DNA of 64,000 nt from Thermotogales bacterium. GTDB lineage: Bacteria > Thermotogota > Thermotogae > Petrotogales > Kosmotogaceae. Position 1 is the first letter of the stretch. Each line of letters begins with the position of its first letter. Of this stretch, positions 2,100 to 21,649 are shown in pieces. The stretch spans positions 1 to 64,000 of the forward strand of contig PWXG01000060.1 of NCBI GenBank assembly GCA_003561215.1, in the 5' to 3' direction. Position numbers and translations under genes: made by a program. Below the pieces are notes generated by a model. It was not told the DNA's origin, did no database searches, and worked only from the letters and a program-made list of their open reading frames with translations.

Positions 2100-3224
2100 A
2101 TGGGCAACTGGAACGACCTCTTCAGAAAGAAGAGGAGACCTTCACCAGGGACACCTCCGGGAACTATCACAGTCGATGAAGGATTTCCTGCTCCCAGCGT
2201 TAGTGTTATTTCTTATAATGAGAGCAAACTTCAGGAGCATCGTTCGGTCACTTTAGAGGAACTGAAACGCATCCTTTCTCTGAACAACAACCTCATCCAC
2301 TGGATTGATGTTCAGGGTCTTGGCGATGAGAAGCTGTTGCGAGAACTCGGAGATTACTTCAAGATTCATCCCCTCGCGTTGGAAGACGTGGTGAACGCTC
2401 CTCAAATGCCGAAGACGGATCAGTTTGCTGACCATGTTTTCATTGTGGTTAGAATGATCCAACTCATTTCTCCTCAGGTTCTTGCTTCTGAGCAGATGAG
2501 CATCTTCCTCGGAAGAAACTATGTCCTCACATTGCAGGAACGTCCTGGTGACTGTCTTGACTCTTTGAGAAGCAGGTTAAGAGAAGGGAAAGGGATAATA
2601 CGCAGGATGAAGGCAGATTACCTCTGCTATGCGGTTATGGATGCAATAATCGACAACTACTTCCCGGTTGTGGAAAACCTGGGCGAGCGATTTGAGGATC
2701 TGGAAGATGGGATTATTTCCGGTGAAAGAACAGCGTCTATAGGGGCCTTCTACTCACTGAAGCATGAAACAATCGCTCTAAGAAGAATCATTTGGCAAAT
2801 GCGCTCGACTGTTGGCTCCGTTATGAGAGGGGGAAGCGGTCTAGTATGCACTGAGACCACCCCGTTTTTCCGTGACTGTTATGAGCATCTCGTACATATG
2901 ATTGATATCACTGAAGCTTACAGGGAACTCCAGGCAGAAATCATGAGCATCTACCTAACAACTGTCAGTAACAGGATGAATGAAATCATGAAAGTTCTGA
3001 CGATCATCGCAACAATATTCATACCTTTGTCTTTCGTCGCTGGCATCTACGGCATGAACTTCGCTTATATGCCGGAGCTGGAGAACAGGCACGCCTACTA
3101 CATAGTTTTGACTGTTATGGTCATTGCTGGACTGGCGATGCTTGCAGTGTTCTGGAAGAAGGGCTGGCTAAAAAGTAGCAACGCCTCAAAGTCCGTGCGA
3201 CAAAGAAGTAGGAACGATGACTGA
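2100..3224 (+). CDS. corA: CorA-family divalent cation (Mg2+/Co2+) transporter
   Basis: A 374-residue CorA channel that moves Mg2+ (and often Co2+) across the inner membrane as a pentamer. The N-terminal part is the large cytoplasmic alpha/beta domain with long helices; the C-terminus carries two membrane helices (about 293-315 and 334-353) with the diagnostic YGMNF loop (GMN at 318-320) between them and a basic tail. The frame also has GTG at 2091, but that GTG overlaps the GAGGTGA ribosome binding site, so ATG 2100 with a six-base spacer is the better start. T. maritima CorA, the structural model of the family, has a similar length. Confidence 0.95.
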   Translation: MGNWNDLFRKKRRPSPGTPPGTITVDEGFPAPSVSVISYNESKLQEHRSVTLEELKRILSLNNNLIHWIDVQGLGDEKLLRELGDYFKIHPLALEDVVNAPQMPKTDQFADHVFIVVRMIQLISPQVLASEQMSIFLGRNYVLTLQERPGDCLDSLRSRLREGKGIIRRMKADYLCYAVMDAIIDNYFPVVENLGERFEDLEDGIISGERTASIGAFYSLKHETIALRRIIWQMRSTVGSVMRGGSGLVCTETTPFFRDCYEHLVHMIDITEAYRELQAEIMSIYLTTVSNRMNEIMKVLTIIATIFIPLSFVAGIYGMNFAYMPELENRHAYYIVLTVMVIAGLAMLAVFWKKGWLKSSNASKSVRQRSRNDD

Positions 3225-3253
3225 AACGACTCGATAAGCCTTACCATTTGGGA

Positions 3254-3889
3254 TTACTGGCCCGGGATGTAAAGATTGAACCGTTGACCGATGTTGCTGA
3301 CTTCTACAGACGGCATCACAACAAGCTTACCGCTGTCGAATCCCGAGAAGATCAGGTAAACGTTCTCAGGCGATGCTGTTCTTATGTAGGCCTCTCGTGA
3401 AAGCATGATGGTGTAATTCGTTTCAACCAGCGGTTCCTTGAAATAGAAGAACTTCTCATCGGAAAGACCCGGACTGAAGTTCTTCTGGAAAGTATATGTC
3501 CCATCTGCTGCGCGTCTCTTAAAGCCTATCCATACATCGCGATTCCCAGTTACAAAGACTCTGAAGTAAGGTCGGTCTGACGAGTCCTGGAGTTCGGTCA
3601 GAATTATGTCCAGATCTCTCTGCGCGTTCTGAAGGAACTCTCTTGCCACTATGTGTTGTTCCAGTATTCCTCCAGCAACAAGCAAGGACCTCAGAGATTC
3701 GACCTGAGAAGTAAGTTCCGACGTAGTTTCTTGAAAACTCCTGAGCATTCTGTTTTCAAGGGAAGCAAACCTTCGTGCCACCTCTGCAGATCTCTGAATA
3801 GCAGCCAGGGAAAATACAAAAGCAACAACAGACATAATTATCAGTGTAAGCCCTATTACAAGTGCGATTTGAACCTTGCCTCTTCTCAT
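3254..3889 (-). CDS. Single-pass membrane protein with coiled coil, unknown
   Basis: A 211-residue protein with a basic start (MRRGK), one membrane helix (about 7-29), then a helical region likely to form a coiled coil (about 31-65) and a mixed C-terminal domain rich in aromatic residues. The topology suggests an anchored protein whose C-terminal domain lies outside the membrane. The open frame extends upstream into the methyltransferase gene, but AAAGGA before ATG 3889 fixes this start. Its start codon lies 4 bases after the methyltransferase stop, so the two are probably co-translated, downstream of the diguanylate cyclase. No recognised family. Confidence 0.75.
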   Translation of the reverse strand: MRRGKVQIALVIGLTLIIMSVVAFVFSLAAIQRSAEVARRFASLENRMLRSFQETTSELTSQVESLRSLLVAGGILEQHIVAREFLQNAQRDLDIILTELQDSSDRPYFRVFVTGNRDVWIGFKRRAADGTYTFQKNFSPGLSDEKFFYFKEPLVETNYTIMLSREAYIRTASPENVYLIFSGFDSGKLVVMPSVEVSNIGQRFNLYIPGQ

Positions 3890-3893
3890 CGAA

Positions 3894-4667
3894 TCATCCT
3901 TTCTTGCAGGAAAAGAAGAAGTGCTCTGCTCGCCCCAGTAACTCGGCTTCCCTGCATAATTTGTACTCCCATTCTGCCACTGCAGATACCCTTCTTGCAA
4001 GCTTGCTCTCAACATAAGGTCCCATGACCACGAGACCTGCTCTATCAACAACAGAGAAACCTGCTTCTTCAAGAGAAGAACTCAGTTCATCAGGGAAAAA
4101 GGGGTGGGTCCTGAACGATTTTCTGCTCATTTGGCTATCGCCGATTCTCACCTCACGTTTGTTATTGAGAAACCTTTTTGCCCTTTCCAGTTCAGCGTGT
4201 GAAAGAAAATCATGCAAGAAGGCGTAAGCACTGTCGACAGTCAGCAAAAACGTCCCAGGAGATCTCAGGACTCTGAACACTTCTGTAATCATCTTATGAT
4301 GATTCCGCGAATACGAAGTAACGTCACCCATTGCCACAACACAGTCAAAGGTGTCGTTATCAAAGGGAAGCTCTTCTGCCTCGCAGCAAACGAGTTCCAC
4401 GTCGATCTCATATTCAGTGGACTTTCTTCTCAGTACAGCAAGCATCTCTTTCGATCGATCAGCTGCAACAACTTCGTTGCCTAGTGCAGCAAAATGAAGA
4501 GCCCATCTTCCTGTACCTGTACCGAGATCAAGCACGCGCCCAGAAGATCTTTCCGCAGAATCGACGAGCCTGCGAAGTATTTCGTGATAGAGACTCCAGT
4601 AGGGCTCATCATACTGGGAATCATAAAGGTGTGCGATATCATCATAGTACTCCCAGGATTCATTCAT
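3894..4667 (-). CDS. Class I SAM-dependent methyltransferase
   Basis: A 257-residue Rossmann-fold methyltransferase. Motif I is clear (GRVLDLGTGTGRWALHF, about 43-59), followed by the acidic ribose-binding position (VVAAD), the motif II/III region (FDCVVAMGDVTSY) and a Methyltransf_11-type core; the substrate cannot be told. Its start overlaps the end of the diguanylate cyclase gene by eight bases and its stop nearly touches the next gene, so the three form one minus-strand transcript. Related UbiE/COQ5-like proteins act on small molecules, but nothing here ties it to quinone synthesis. Confidence 0.88.
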   Translation of the reverse strand: MNESWEYYDDIAHLYDSQYDEPYWSLYHEILRRLVDSAERSSGRVLDLGTGTGRWALHFAALGNEVVAADRSKEMLAVLRRKSTEYEIDVELVCCEAEELPFDNDTFDCVVAMGDVTSYSRNHHKMITEVFRVLRSPGTFLLTVDSAYAFLHDFLSHAELERAKRFLNNKREVRIGDSQMSRKSFRTHPFFPDELSSSLEEAGFSVVDRAGLVVMGPYVESKLARRVSAVAEWEYKLCREAELLGRAEHFFFSCKKG

Positions 4668-13852: not shown

Positions 13853-13869
13853 GTGATTGCCTACTGTTG

Positions 13870-13898
13870 ACGAGCCGCCAACAAGGCGGCTCGTTTTC
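13870..13898 (+). terminator. Rho-independent terminator of gap-pgk-tpi
   Basis: ACGAGCCGCC (13870-13879) and GGCGGCTCGT (13885-13894) form a perfect 10 bp stem with loop AACAA, followed directly by TTT. It closes the glycolytic operon on the plus strand. Confidence 0.85.
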
Positions 13899-13936: not shown

Positions 13937-15469
13937 TTACATATGTTTGAGAAGCTCCCGGACCTTTTCGGTAGCAAGAAGCTTATCTTGCTCGGAAAGA
14001 GAGACTTCCGTTTCAGAGAAGTCTATGGTTATGCTCTGCTTTGTTTCTACTATCGTTGCCTTCAGATGGATCATTCCGTTAGCATCGTAGGAGAAATCTA
14101 TGCGAAGAGTATGGGGTTCTGACTGCCGCCGCTGAGGAATTCCCGCAATGCGTGCATGTATTCCTGTGTCAATAGCTTCTCCAGCTCGCTGCTTCACATT
14201 TCTGTGCGACTGAAGCACACGTATATTCACCGCACGCTGCTCAGCGCTCAATAGATCGTACTCCACACTCGTTTCAAAAGGCAGTTTGGTGTTGGGCTCG
14301 ATGAGCGGATCGTAGACAAACTCCCATTGATTGCCGATAAGTTCGAGGATCTCCAGCCCAAGCCCATAAGGCGAGATATCGGAGGTTACGACCTCACTTT
14401 CGCCTATTACCAGACCCCTCATGATTGCAGCCTGAAAAGTTCCACCCATGCAGACAGCAAGGTCCGGATCAACAGAGACGCTTATCTTGCCAGGAAAGTA
14501 CTCTTGTAGCATCTGCCTCACTGCCGGAACGTAGGTAGTGCCTCCGACAAGTATCACCCTGTCGATCGCCGATTTCTCGACACTCTTCATGGACAGTGTC
14601 TCTTCAACAACATCACCGGCACGCTCGACCATGTCTCCGATTATCCTGTTCATCTCTTCCCTCGACAAGGATCTGTCAAGAGTCACCGAGCTACCGTCTT
14701 CCCGTTTCCCGACTGCCGGGAGATACAGGTCTTCACTGTCTGCAAAGGAAAGCTTCTCCTTTGCCCGGCGGGCTTCCTTCCTAAGCGCATCGTGTGCTGT
14801 GACCTCGACTCCCCCACCTTCTTGAAGATCCTCTTCAAGATACGAAGCGATGCTATCATCGAAGTCGCTTCCGCCAAGAAAAAGGTCTCCATAACTCGCG
14901 ATTACGTCGACGTTCCTCCCGTCGATATTGAGGACAGTGATGTCAAGCGTTCCGCCGCCCCAGTCAAATACCAGAGCAGTTTCCCTTGATCGACGCTCCA
15001 CAGCCCCAAAGGCAATAGCTGCTGCCGTAGGCTCGTTTATGAGCCTCAACACTCTCAGTCCGGCAATCTCCGCCGCATCCATGGTGGCTCTTCGTGCCGG
15101 TTCGGGGAAATTCGCCGGAACACTTATGACAGCTTCCTCTACGACTATCCCCAGGGACTTCTCTGCAATCGACTTCACTTTTCCAATAATAAGCGCAGCG
15201 ATTTCCTCAGGCCGATAAGTGCGATCACCCAGTTCTACCTCAGCGTCTGTTCCCATAAGCCTTTTAACCTGGGATACGAATCTACCCTCCAGCCCTTCGT
15301 ATTTCAGTGCATCGTTTCCAACGACCAGATCTCCGTTTTCGTCGATTGCAACAGCAGAGGGAATCGTCTTCTTTCCACTGGCAGGATCTTCGATAACCTT
15401 TACCCCTCCAGCTACGAAGGTAGCTACCTCAGAAGTGGATGTGCCAAAATCTATACCGATTGCGTACAC
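13937..15469 (-). CDS. Hsp70-family protein without the C-terminal lid
   Basis: A ~510-residue DnaK relative. The nucleotide-binding domain is complete: phosphate 1 (GIDFGTSTSE), LINEPTAAAIA, phosphate 2 (FDWGGGTLDITV) and adenosine motif (ILVGGTTYVPAVR). A beta-sandwich substrate domain follows, but the alpha-helical lid of ~100 residues is absent (DnaK is usually 600-640). The hydrophobic interdomain linker (DVLLLD in DnaK) is replaced by a polar EVVTSD before ISPYGLGLE. The open frame starts at TTG 15478, only one base after AGGAGG; GTG 15469 has a more normal spacing and is chosen, but is not certain. It follows a membrane-anchored GrpE-like gene by about 28 bases, so the two look like a dedicated pair. 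Confidence 0.85.
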   Translation of the reverse strand: MYAIGIDFGTSTSEVATFVAGGVKVIEDPASGKKTIPSAVAIDENGDLVVGNDALKYEGLEGRFVSQVKRLMGTDAEVELGDRTYRPEEIAALIIGKVKSIAEKSLGIVVEEAVISVPANFPEPARRATMDAAEIAGLRVLRLINEPTAAAIAFGAVERRSRETALVFDWGGGTLDITVLNIDGRNVDVIASYGDLFLGGSDFDDSIASYLEEDLQEGGGVEVTAHDALRKEARRAKEKLSFADSEDLYLPAVGKREDGSSVTLDRSLSREEMNRIIGDMVERAGDVVEETLSMKSVEKSAIDRVILVGGTTYVPAVRQMLQEYFPGKISVSVDPDLAVCMGGTFQAAIMRGLVIGESEVVTSDISPYGLGLEILELIGNQWEFVYDPLIEPNTKLPFETSVEYDLLSAEQRAVNIRVLQSHRNVKQRAGEAIDTGIHARIAGIPQRRQSEPHTLRIDFSYDANGMIHLKATIVETKQSITIDFSETEVSLSEQDKLLATEKVRELLKHM

Positions 15470-15497
15470 CTTTGTCAAACCTCCTGGATTCGTTTCA

Positions 15498-16208
15498 TTA
15501 GGATTTCTTCTTGCCTGTGGCTCTTGAGAGGCGTGAAGCTACAACTATCTCTGCTTCCCTCATGATTCGTTCGCCGAAGCGGTATCCTGGGTTCAGCACC
15601 TCAACAACCGTGCCACGGGGAAAATTGGATTCCTTCTCCCTGATAATCTTAGCAATGTTCATGTCAGGAATCGCTCGTTCTTTCGGGACATAGACTGTGA
15701 GCCCTGCTGCTGCGACCCTTCTACAGAGCGCCTCAAATGAATCGTTCTCTTCCTTGTCACCCTGTCTGGAGATCCTCCAGAGATCGTCCAAAGAGGAAAT
15801 GATCGCATTCAAGAGCGATTCACTGGCATGCTCATGTCTCTGTTTTTCCTCGCTCATTCTTTGCAGAGAATCGCTGAAAAGGCTTTCCGATCTTCTGATC
15901 AGTCTATGAAGAGTTGGAAGATCGCTTTCCAAGAATTTCTGGACCCTCTCGATCTTCTCAATTGCCCTGCTTTCTCCATTGTCCCGGTCGTTGCTTTCTT
16001 CCTGATCAGCTTCGAAATTTTTCACGAGAAGGAACCCGATCGTCATCAACAACAATGCAGAACCTGTAAGCACAATGCTTTCAACCGTCTCGTATTGCGT
16101 GCCGAAAAGAACAAATAGCCCTACCGTGACAATCAGCGACGCTCCTGCCAGCAGTAGTACATACCCCGAAATTGAAAAGACCTTGCGCATCAGTTGCCCT
16201 CTTCTCAT
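15498..16208 (-). CDS. Membrane-anchored GrpE-like nucleotide exchange factor
   Basis: A 236-residue protein with two membrane helices near the N-terminus (about 12-33 and 43-62), a charged helical region (about 66-140) and a C-terminal segment resembling the GrpE beta domain: FPRGTVVEVLNPGYRFGER followed by IMREAEIVVAS matches the GTVVEVLQ.GY...DRVLRPA.V.VA pattern. GrpE proteins release ADP from Hsp70; a membrane-tethered version is unusual. AGGAGG stands five bases before the ATG. It lies immediately upstream of the lid-less Hsp70 gene on the same strand, which supports a functional pair at the inner membrane. The GrpE assignment rests on this motif and the neighbour, not on a search. Confidence 0.72.
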   Translation of the reverse strand: MRRGQLMRKVFSISGYVLLLAGASLIVTVGLFVLFGTQYETVESIVLTGSALLLMTIGFLLVKNFEADQEESNDRDNGESRAIEKIERVQKFLESDLPTLHRLIRRSESLFSDSLQRMSEEKQRHEHASESLLNAIISSLDDLWRISRQGDKEENDSFEALCRRVAAAGLTVYVPKERAIPDMNIAKIIREKESNFPRGTVVEVLNPGYRFGERIMREAEIVVASRLSRATGKKKS

Positions 16209-16337
16209 GGTAACCTCCTAGATGAAACCTCACTGAGCACGCTCTTATTCCGACGATACCTTGATGTTCTAATGTTCAAACTGACCTTGAGTCGGATTTA
16301 TTACCCACAGCACCCATGCTGAATATGGAGGTGCACG

Positions 16338-17282
16338 ATGAACACACTGGCAATAACTATAATCGTCATATTCACAACAACTCTTCTGGTGAGTTACTTC
16401 AAGTCTACAGCAAAGGATCGATGTCTGAAAGACTTCAGATCTTTTCAGACACTGGTGATTCTGAAGAACAACAACTCACTGTGGGGCCGTCTCATAATCG
16501 AAAGCAGTGGTGTTGTTCTAGAATATCCAGAATCATATGACAATGTTACGCATCTCGAGAGGGGTTACATCATCTACAGAGGGGAGTTCTCCATTCTGCA
16601 TGGTCTGTTCAGAATCGTCGACCAGCTCACAGCCGAAGAACTTCGTCTCAGAGAACGAACAAGCCTGGTATTCGAGCGCAGCTGGATTGTCAACATCCGC
16701 AGGGTTCTGAGGAACTTCTTTGCTGCTGTTCGAGATGCGATTGTCGACACCTTCTCGCTATTTCTGGGCCGGATAACCCCCAAGAGTGCTGTGGTAGCTG
16801 GTAACCAGAAGTACGTCAAGTCGGTTGGTGAAAGCTTCATCGACTACGTGGGCAACTCCTACGATTCGATCCTTGAAAGACTGATAGGCAAGAGAGTAAT
16901 AATCGAAGTCTCAAGAGACGGAAAATGGACTGAATATGAAGGTACAATGAGAAACTACACCAAGGATTTTGTCGAAGTGCTTTCAACATATATGCCGATT
17001 AGCTACTCTGTCAAATGCCGTCGAGGAACTATAGAGGCTTTTGGTGTCGTGTTTGAACGGATCGAGGATTCGGTGATTGTCAAGAATTTCAGAAAAGAAT
17101 CGATTTCCCTGTCTCTTGAAAATGCTGAAGCAACACAAATCAAACCTGACTGCGAAAAGAGTATCTCCAGCGCAGAAGAAGCTATTTTCGATATCGAGTA
17201 TGAATGCGAAGTAGATGCCATCTTTCCCAGGTCTGAAGCGATTGTCAGACATCCCACAGCAGAATTCAGAAGGCACAAATGA
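16338..17282 (+). CDS. Membrane-anchored protein of unknown function
   Basis: A 314-residue protein with one N-terminal membrane helix (about 3-19), a region rich in basic and hydrophobic residues (about 100-150) that may associate with the membrane, and a beta-rich segment (GKRVIIEVSRDGKWTEYEGT and onward, about 185-225). GGAGGTG precedes ATG. It is divergent from the GrpE/Hsp70 pair and overlaps the following DHFR-family gene by four bases (ATGA). I do not recognise the family. Divergent orientation may mean shared regulation with the chaperone pair, but that is inference. Confidence 0.72.
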   Translation: MNTLAITIIVIFTTTLLVSYFKSTAKDRCLKDFRSFQTLVILKNNNSLWGRLIIESSGVVLEYPESYDNVTHLERGYIIYRGEFSILHGLFRIVDQLTAEELRLRERTSLVFERSWIVNIRRVLRNFFAAVRDAIVDTFSLFLGRITPKSAVVAGNQKYVKSVGESFIDYVGNSYDSILERLIGKRVIIEVSRDGKWTEYEGTMRNYTKDFVEVLSTYMPISYSVKCRRGTIEAFGVVFERIEDSVIVKNFRKESISLSLENAEATQIKPDCEKSISSAEEAIFDIEYECEVDAIFPRSEAIVRHPTAEFRRHK

Positions 17283-20284: not shown

Positions 20285-21649
20285 TTATGAATTCAGAACT
20301 TCGAGACTATCAGACAGTGTGTACAAGGCAGCTTCTTTATCAAGTAGTGACAGAACGCCACAAGCTGCAGCGATGTACTTTCGATCTATCGTAAGCGTTA
20401 CATCCGATTTGGGCAGGAGCTCGTTGTGAAACCTTCTTTGAAAAGTGCGTAGTCTTTTGAAGAAAGTGGGCGCATCCGCAGAACGCGACAAGACCCCTCC
20501 GGTTCCAACAATCATCTTGATTGCAGTAAGGTCCTTTCCTTCAGCAACGTCGATTCTACCTGTTGGTCCAAATACTCTTCTGAATCTTCCTGCGTGTCTT
20601 CTAATTGCAGTTTCGAGGCAATGTGAAGCGAGACGTGACACAAGTGCATTGTGCGCTTCGGTCTCTGGGAATGGAGACTCTGAATCAACAAGTTCATCGA
20701 GGTTGTCAAATTCTGCAGCAAGACGACTCCAGCCAGCGTTGTTTGCCACGTATCTTGCATTCACGAAAACACCCAGATCTCCTTCTACAGTTCTTTTCGC
20801 TCTGGGCTCCGGACTGATCAGTTTTCTCTGGATCTCCGGATCGCCTTCCGTCACTGAGTCCACATCTGTAGTAGCTCCTCCAATATCCACTGTCAAAACG
20901 TCCCTGTGCTTTTCAGCCAGGAGTTCTGTCGCTATCATGACGGCAGCGGGAGTCGGCATGATTTCACGGTTTACGACAGAGTAAATCTTCTCCATTCCGG
21001 GGGCTTTCACTATGTGACGAGAGAAGACTTCGCGAATGACCTAATGCGTCGGCTCGACGTTTAAATCATCGATTCTCGGGTAGACGTTTTGCCTGATATA
21101 GATTTCCTTTCCTGAAGACTTCAGAATGGCCTCTGCTTCTGAAGCTACAGCACAATTTCCAGCGAATATGATAGGAACATCGAGATCGAGTCCTGCAATG
21201 ACGTTGCTGTTATATAGAACGGTATCGCCTTCACCGTAGTCGACGCCGCCTGCCAGCAAGATGAGCCTCGGCTGAATTTCGAGAATACGCGCAATATCGG
21301 TAGCCCCAAGTCTGCCTGCTGTCACATGCTTGATCACGCCACCTGCTCCCAGGGCAGCCTCCTTCGCCGCCTTGACAGTCATGTCGTAGACGAGACCGTG
21401 TACGGTCATTTTCAAACCACCGGCCGCACTGCTGCATGCAAGAAATGTCTCCCAATCAAGGGTGTCTGCTTGAAGCTGTTTCTTGATGGAAAGAAGAGCC
21501 CTGTTGATACCGATTGTGACATCGCCTTCCGATACCGTCGTGTTTGATTCACTCTGCCCAACGAGTCTGAAGCGATCATCACCCGATACGAATCCGTTCA
21601 GCACCGTCGTAGTACTACCGATTTCCGCTACGAGAAAGTCAAGTTTCAC
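20285..21649 (-). pseudogene. MutL/GlmL-type protein interrupted by one in-frame TAG
   Basis: A MutL-type (GlmL-like, not mismatch-repair) protein of about 454 residues, an ASKHA ATPase family linked to B12-dependent aminomutases. The first 202 residues (FLVAEIGSTTTVLNGFVSG, GGLKMTVHGLV, LLAGGVDYGE) end at TAG 21041-21043; the same frame continues at once as VIREVFSRHIVKAPGMEK and a complete second half (TVDIGGATTDVDSV, GTGGVLSRS) to 20285. Only this codon breaks it, probably a recent CAG/CGG-type change, a sequencing error, or readthrough. The GTG start overlaps the yqeY stop (GTGA), and it is last in the zapA-to-yqeY operon. A link to ornithine degradation is inferred from ord/ortA/ortB near the window's end. 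Confidence 0.75.

Follow-up and report, generated by a model that had tools for sequence, protein, structure and literature searches.

A GrpE homologue with a predicted membrane hairpin is encoded next to a lidless Hsp70 in Kosmotogaceae

Results

A GrpE homologue and a lidless Hsp70 are encoded side by side

The window, a stretch of 64,000 nucleotides of contig PWXG01000060.1 from a Thermotogales bacterium of the Kosmotogaceae, carries on its minus strand two adjacent genes, one for a GrpE homologue of 236 amino acids with two predicted membrane helices (15498–16208) and one for an Hsp70 that lacks the helical lid (13937–15469). We favour, with a probability of about 0.6, the reading that the two proteins form a dedicated, membrane-tethered Hsp70 pair for transient holding or remodelling at the inner membrane.

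The GrpE homologue, whose gene is preceded by an AGGAGG ribosome-binding site (16214–16219, minus strand), was identified by Pfam GrpE (PF01025), by an AF2 model and by fold matches in the PDB. Against PF01025 it scored 37.5 bits (E=2.5e-9, residues 79-224), which exceeds the curated cut-off of 25.8 bits, and its orthologue P0005 scored 40 bits. The match of the C-terminus to the GrpE beta domain, noticed in the original prediction, was recovered with the 59 C-terminal residues by themselves (29.7 bits, E=6e-7). A reverse profile made from the window protein together with the relative closest to it had matches in 35 Thermotogota genomes outside the three carriers of the gene pair, mostly to proteins of GrpE size (E-values per genome between 4e-9 and 1e-3). 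In hhalign, the comparison with 24 canonical GrpEs gave a probability of 97.9%. As a single sequence searched against the PDB with phmmer, the protein obtained marginal GrpE matches only (E=0.18).

The AF2 model, based on a 26-row alignment, reached a pLDDT of 80.1, with about 83-95 over most of the stalk and wing. It predicts a GrpE-type stalk, long and alpha-helical, at residues 78-149 (15762–15977, minus strand), which was also aligned with canonical GrpE stalks, and a GrpE-type beta-wing at residues about 170-225 (15534–15701, minus strand; pLDDT about 83-92 for residues 171-220) that contains GTVVEVLNPGYRFGERIMREAEIVVA. When the PDB was searched with this model, all 12 matches with E<=0.001 were GrpE or GrpEL1 (best match 1dkg_B, E=5e-7), so that the structure prediction, too, points to a GrpE-type stalk and to the wing that had been proposed. 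Since the 26 rows contained canonical GrpEs, which makes the model supportive rather than independent, and since AF2 with three orthologues only gave an unusable model (pLDDT 51.7), it is primarily the sequence profiles that support homology. The 236-residue protein is a true GrpE homologue across stalk and beta-wing.

With canonical GrpE the protein shares the long helical stalk, short helices, the beta-wing and the GY...R..R.A.V.VA segment, within the same HMM and fold, and the core of the wing is conserved (GY, R214, R217 and the V-A residues). The differences lie in the disordered N-terminal tail of canonical GrpE, which is replaced by a two-helix membrane hairpin, in the conserved FDP..HEA motif ahead of the wing, which is lost (IPDMNIAK), and in an identity of only about 14-23% to Thermotogota GrpEs. 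A typical GrpE is also soluble and cytosolic, a trait that is not strictly defining, whereas the window protein has two predicted membrane helices.

The Hsp70 retains the ATPase machinery and ends after the beta substrate domain

The neighbouring gene was assigned by PF00012 (334.6 bits) and by conserved residues; its product is a member of the Hsp70 superfamily with an ATPase domain including the catalytic residues and a beta substrate domain, and it scores 338 bits against the DnaK equivalog TIGR02350, below the cut-off of 822.55. Both open reading frames lie on the minus strand at the place given in the original prediction; the list of open reading frames lets the Hsp70 begin at TTG 15478, which would give 513 amino acids. 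The AGGAGG ribosome-binding site (15480–15485, minus strand) lies one base ahead of this TTG and ten ahead of GTG 15469, and in the relative L001 the Hsp70 starts at the same point as the latter with ATG and has 510 amino acids. Because of this spacing and the shared start, the Hsp70 probably begins at GTG 15469 and comprises 510 residues.

As proposed from the beginning, the alpha lid is missing: behind the beta substrate domain only a C-terminal tail of 19 residues (13940–13996, minus strand) follows DnaK position 507, compared with 131 residues in E. coli DnaK and 82 in the relative from genome G018. A frameshift as the cause can be ruled out, as the protein of the sister species stops at the identical position and the Hsp70 stop lies just 84 bp from the end of the converging tpiA gene. 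No lid-coding remnant fits into these 84 bp, which contain a terminator-like hairpin with an 11-pair stem (13869–13895). The interdomain linker SEVVTSD (14378–14398, minus strand) is, by alignment, the counterpart of VLLLD in DnaK. The earlier description of a polar segment in place of this linker is correct for the last two hydrophobic positions, which are polar in the window species (VVTSD), whereas hydrophobic residues at the first two positions and the Asp are kept; the relatives have VITSD and INIKD.

In DnaK numbering, the protein has kept D8, K70, E171, D194, GGGT and D201, which we take to be the ATP-site residues, as well as P143 and R151, presumably the proline switch, R167, N170 and T173, presumably the residues that contact J-proteins, and D393. 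The beta-pocket positions V436 and I438 are kept, too, and the lid-latch positions D431 and R467 are missing or changed. In the nucleotide cleft, both DnaK salt bridges, K55-E267 and R56-E264, are lost (K55L, R56K, E264K and E267R) and L257 and M259 are not conserved (T or a gap, and H, respectively); the 290-295 region aligns without deletion.

The GrpE homologue carries a predicted N-terminal membrane hairpin

The two membrane helices of the GrpE homologue that the original prediction had described stand as a prediction. Hydropathy, the model and the charge pattern place helix 1 at residues about 17-36 (16101–16160, minus strand), after R2, R3, R8 and K9; hydropathy, the model and the sequence place helix 2 at residues about 44-63 (16020–16079, minus strand), where it ends with K63 and gives way to a polar, acidic stretch. 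The hydrophobic helices are separated by an acidic loop of seven residues (TQYETVE), and in the AF2 model helices extend over residues 3-36 and 42-66, with lower confidence for the hairpin (about 61-76) than for the larger part of stalk and wing (about 83-95). The hairpin is conserved in all three orthologues, with hydropathy peaks of 2.6-3.0 for helix 1 and 2.4 for helix 2. From the basic N-terminal flank, the acidic loop and the lysine at the end of helix 2, the positive-inside rule predicts an N-in/C-in hairpin with both ends of the anchor in the cytoplasm. The Hsp70 has no signal sequence and must therefore be cytoplasmic, on the side to which both ends would point.

The gene pair is maintained in three genomes of one family

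The two genes are separated by 28 nt on the same strand, each with its own AGGAGG. Compared with the sister species, pN/pS was 0.27 for the GrpE homologue and 0.19 for the Hsp70, similar to 0.20 for tpiA; both genes are thus maintained and under purifying selection. Among 103 Thermotogota genomes, the pair was present in three, all of them Kosmotogaceae and all draft assemblies of many contigs: the window genome, its congener G033 and G018, a member of another genus of the family. A scan of genome contigs for relatives returned UBA9910 only, which was taken as the same genome as G033 and counted once. No relative was found in a plasmid collection, and 386 genomes, mostly of other phyla, yielded no orthologue of the Hsp70 except a distant match in G205. 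The co-occurrence looked for in Thermotogae therefore exists, with the genes adjacent and without an intervening gene in three genomes of two genera, but it is not general.

G018 and the window genome have different genes flanking the pair, and the identity between them is 45% for the Hsp70s and 26% for the GrpE homologues. Since the Hsp70 of G018 retains a short lid of 82 residues, the lid may have been lost within the Kosmotogaceae lineage that carries the pair. In the window, the neighbours are tpiA and a divergently transcribed gene for a 314-aa protein (16338-17282, plus strand) whose N-terminal part contains a hydrophobic stretch and for which Pfam and NCBIfam gave no significant match. 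As a client or partner this protein was rejected: several genera of the Kosmotogaceae that do not have the pair encode relatives of it, as does one genus of another family, and it was not found in G018, which carries the pair. It seems unconnected with the pair.

Apart from the pair, the window genome encodes a canonical HrcA-GrpE-DnaJ set on one contig and a canonical DnaK on another, beside Hsp20 and Clp genes. With housekeeping covered by this complete and separate system, the pair is free to take on a special role. Five genomes of the family were tested for J-domain proteins, including the window genome, which is 93% complete, and each yielded exactly one; the claim that no J-protein is encoded near the pair was confirmed, and no gene for a J-TPR or zinc-ribbon TPR protein lies beside it.

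Similar pairs without an anchor occur in other phyla

Where genomes of other phyla encode two or more GrpEs, the additional copy is often located immediately upstream of a gene for an Hsp70 of 531-601 aa, as at loci L127, L128, L149, L156, L161, L164, L165, L167, L170, L172, L173 and L178, and each of these genomes has, at another place, one or more GrpE copies that score better. The pairing itself is thus not new, the dedication of a GrpE to a short Hsp70 being a known kind of arrangement. These pairs share with the window pair the GrpE gene directly upstream of the short Hsp70 gene. They differ from it in that no membrane helix was found in the paired GrpE copies sampled, and in that genes nearby often code for TPR, J-TPR or zinc-ribbon TPR proteins, of which some have a membrane helix. 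What is unusual here is the combination of an anchor on GrpE itself, complete loss of the lid and no J or TPR gene; a membrane-anchored GrpE was not found in the searchable literature.

Several of these loci (L149, L161, L165, L170, L127 and L173) form a recurrent operon across several phyla, in which genes for a J-domain protein, GrpE and an Hsp70 of about 580 aa follow each other, often ending with a zinc-ribbon/TPR protein downstream of the Hsp70. Its J-domain proteins, of which four are fusions with TPR repeats, have YDPE, YSPE, HPPE or YNPE instead of HPD, and a J-domain degenerate in this way is unusual in a protein that partners an Hsp70. At L178 (2361-4677), in another phylum, a GrpE-like gene lies beside that for a lidless Hsp70 of 531 aa with 18 residues past position 507 and a long altered linker, possibly an independent loss of the lid in a GrpE-paired Hsp70. 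Thermotogota chemotaxis operons (L041:3043-4530, L042:4615-6153, L044:5503-6993 and L046:5307-6725) also encode Hsp70s without a lid, which are about 470-510 aa long, have linkers such as ELKD and lie next to genes for a ParA-like ATPase, CheA, MCP, CheW or CheR. With no GrpE beside them, they were rejected as orthologues of the paired Hsp70, and they form a clade of their own with a tree support of 100/100.

Among characterised proteins, HscC of E. coli resembles the window Hsp70 in several respects. HscC is described as having 4-8 residues inserted in loop L1,2 and DnaK 76-101 deleted (PMC8215388), and the window Hsp70 shows both features, with seven extra residues in L1,2; SPY(G)LG behind its linker compares with CPYSLG in HscC, FSYD.NG is a further likeness, and the G018 relative is of HscC length (576 aa) and has a short lid. 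By contrast, the window Hsp70 has no lid at all and is paired with GrpE; the partner of HscC is the J-protein DjlC. The GrpE-signature segment 290-295 is present in the window Hsp70 and absent from HscC as described in the same review, on which this contrast rests, as MAFFT aligned HscC itself across 290-295 with at most one gap. The tree, with long branches and weak support, did not join the two proteins and speaks neither for nor against a link to HscC. GAP1-N2 GTPase conflict systems likewise have neighbourhoods in which an Hsp70 is accompanied by a GrpE of its own and, in some cases, by J or TPR fusions (eLife 2020, PMC7159879); near the window pair, no GTPase, FNIII or effector genes were recognised. 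SglK and the 540-aa StkA of Myxococcus xanthus are, like the window Hsp70, accessory Hsp70s beside a housekeeping DnaK, but act in exopolysaccharide and pilus pathways, and the accessible part of the source describes no anchored GrpE.

Discussion

On the basis of the homology, the predicted hairpin and the conserved adjacency, we infer co-transcription, a physical complex, exchange activity, location, clients and function of the pair along the following lines. The GrpE-type protein would sit in the inner membrane by an N-in/C-in hairpin in place of the disordered N-terminal tail of ordinary GrpE, and its coiled-coil stalk would dimerise. Its beta-wing would dock onto the nucleotide-binding domain of the Hsp70 encoded next to it, hold the Hsp70 at the membrane surface and time the exchange of ADP for ATP there. 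The beta pocket of the Hsp70 could then bind exposed segments of membrane-proximal proteins, in an ATP-driven cycle with a shared DnaJ or without any J-protein. In the absence of a lid, binding and release of clients are expected to be quick, so that the likely job would be transient holding or remodelling of a narrow set of clients rather than refolding. The lidless Hsc70 of C. elegans keeps ATPase activity and cofactor binding and has lost refolding (PMC3315512), which points to holding, remodelling or regulation as well. In human mortalin-GrpEL1, GrpE contacts the linker and the lid of the Hsp70 (PMC11685456); both are altered here, which fits a partner-specific interface.

The membrane-tethered, dedicated pair that had originally been proposed is thus supported by the GrpE homology, the predicted hairpin and the adjacency of the genes, whereas its description as an exchange pair in the catalytic sense is uncertain because the cleft salt-bridge residues are lost. 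In HscA and HscC, the absence of these salt bridges goes along with fast spontaneous release of ADP and with neither interaction with nor need for GrpE (PMC8215388). The window pair shows the opposite combination, with the bridges lost and a private GrpE present. The GrpE homologue could speed up the exchange or mainly decide where the Hsp70 is located, and the replacement of acidic bridge partners by basic residues suggests that it may be more a membrane recruiter than an exchange catalyst. A more radical scenario, which we consider tentative, is that the GrpE homologue acts as a membrane receptor that fixes the work site of the Hsp70 and the release of its clients, with nucleotide exchange largely spontaneous and lid and private J-protein dispensed with. 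If true, this would amount to localised nucleotide exchange by GrpE, which a 2021 review considered refuted for E. coli GrpE because that protein is soluble and evenly distributed (PMC8215388).

Taken a step further, the homologue could be nothing but a scaffold, with a wing that parks at the membrane an Hsp70 exchanging its nucleotide unaided. The substitutions K55L, E264K and E267R together with the changes at 257/259 speak for this, in view of the behaviour of HscA and HscC (PMC8215388), but the wing core is conserved and scores as GrpE by itself, and the 290-295 region shows none of the deletion described for those two proteins, which makes a pure scaffold quite improbable. Somewhat easier to imagine, though still unlikely, is a regulatory pair instead of a folding machine, in which the membrane GrpE would sense an envelope or temperature signal and switch an Hsp70 bound to one regulator or enzyme. 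The analogy is provided by Myxococcus exopolysaccharide, where, going by genetics in the accessible part of the report, SglK and StkA, the latter not heat-induced, act in the exopolysaccharide/motility pathway (PMC4319316). GrpE has been described as a thermosensor (PMC12987570), and the expected loss of refolding with the lid and the lack of a dedicated J-protein would suit such a role. Against it, no signalling gene is linked to the pair in any of the three genomes, and an anchor that exposes a loop of about seven residues only leaves no room for a periplasmic sensor domain.

The remaining alternatives concern the partnership and the anchor. As the genome encodes a canonical DnaK and the wing is conserved, the anchored GrpE might draw ordinary DnaK to the membrane, the lidless Hsp70 being an unrelated neighbour or a competitor. 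We regard this as very improbable, given that the two genes have stayed adjacent across two genera despite changing neighbours, and that second GrpE genes elsewhere adjoin genes for short Hsp70s. It is harder still to believe that the hairpin fails to anchor the protein stably in the membrane and that the proteins are a soluble second GrpE-Hsp70 pair. Such pairs are common in other phyla and the lower model confidence in the hairpin would agree with it, but two hydropathy peaks of 2.4-3.0 and the positive N-terminal flank are kept in orthologues even at 26% identity.

For the dedicated, membrane-tethered pair, no linked client gene was found at the pair loci. An anchored GrpE next to a lidless Hsp70 would be a natural pair for testing nucleotide exchange as a means of placing Hsp70 action at the membrane, and it would also allow asking what a lidless Hsp70 can do. 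Since its spread is limited to three draft genomes, we rate its importance as moderate.

A further observation in the window concerns a MutL/GlmL-like protein with an ATPase fold (20285-21649, minus strand), which is split into open reading frames of 202 and 241 aa by a frameshift or a stop, be it real or an assembly error. In the sister species L001, its counterpart is a single open reading frame of 454 aa (2599-3963).
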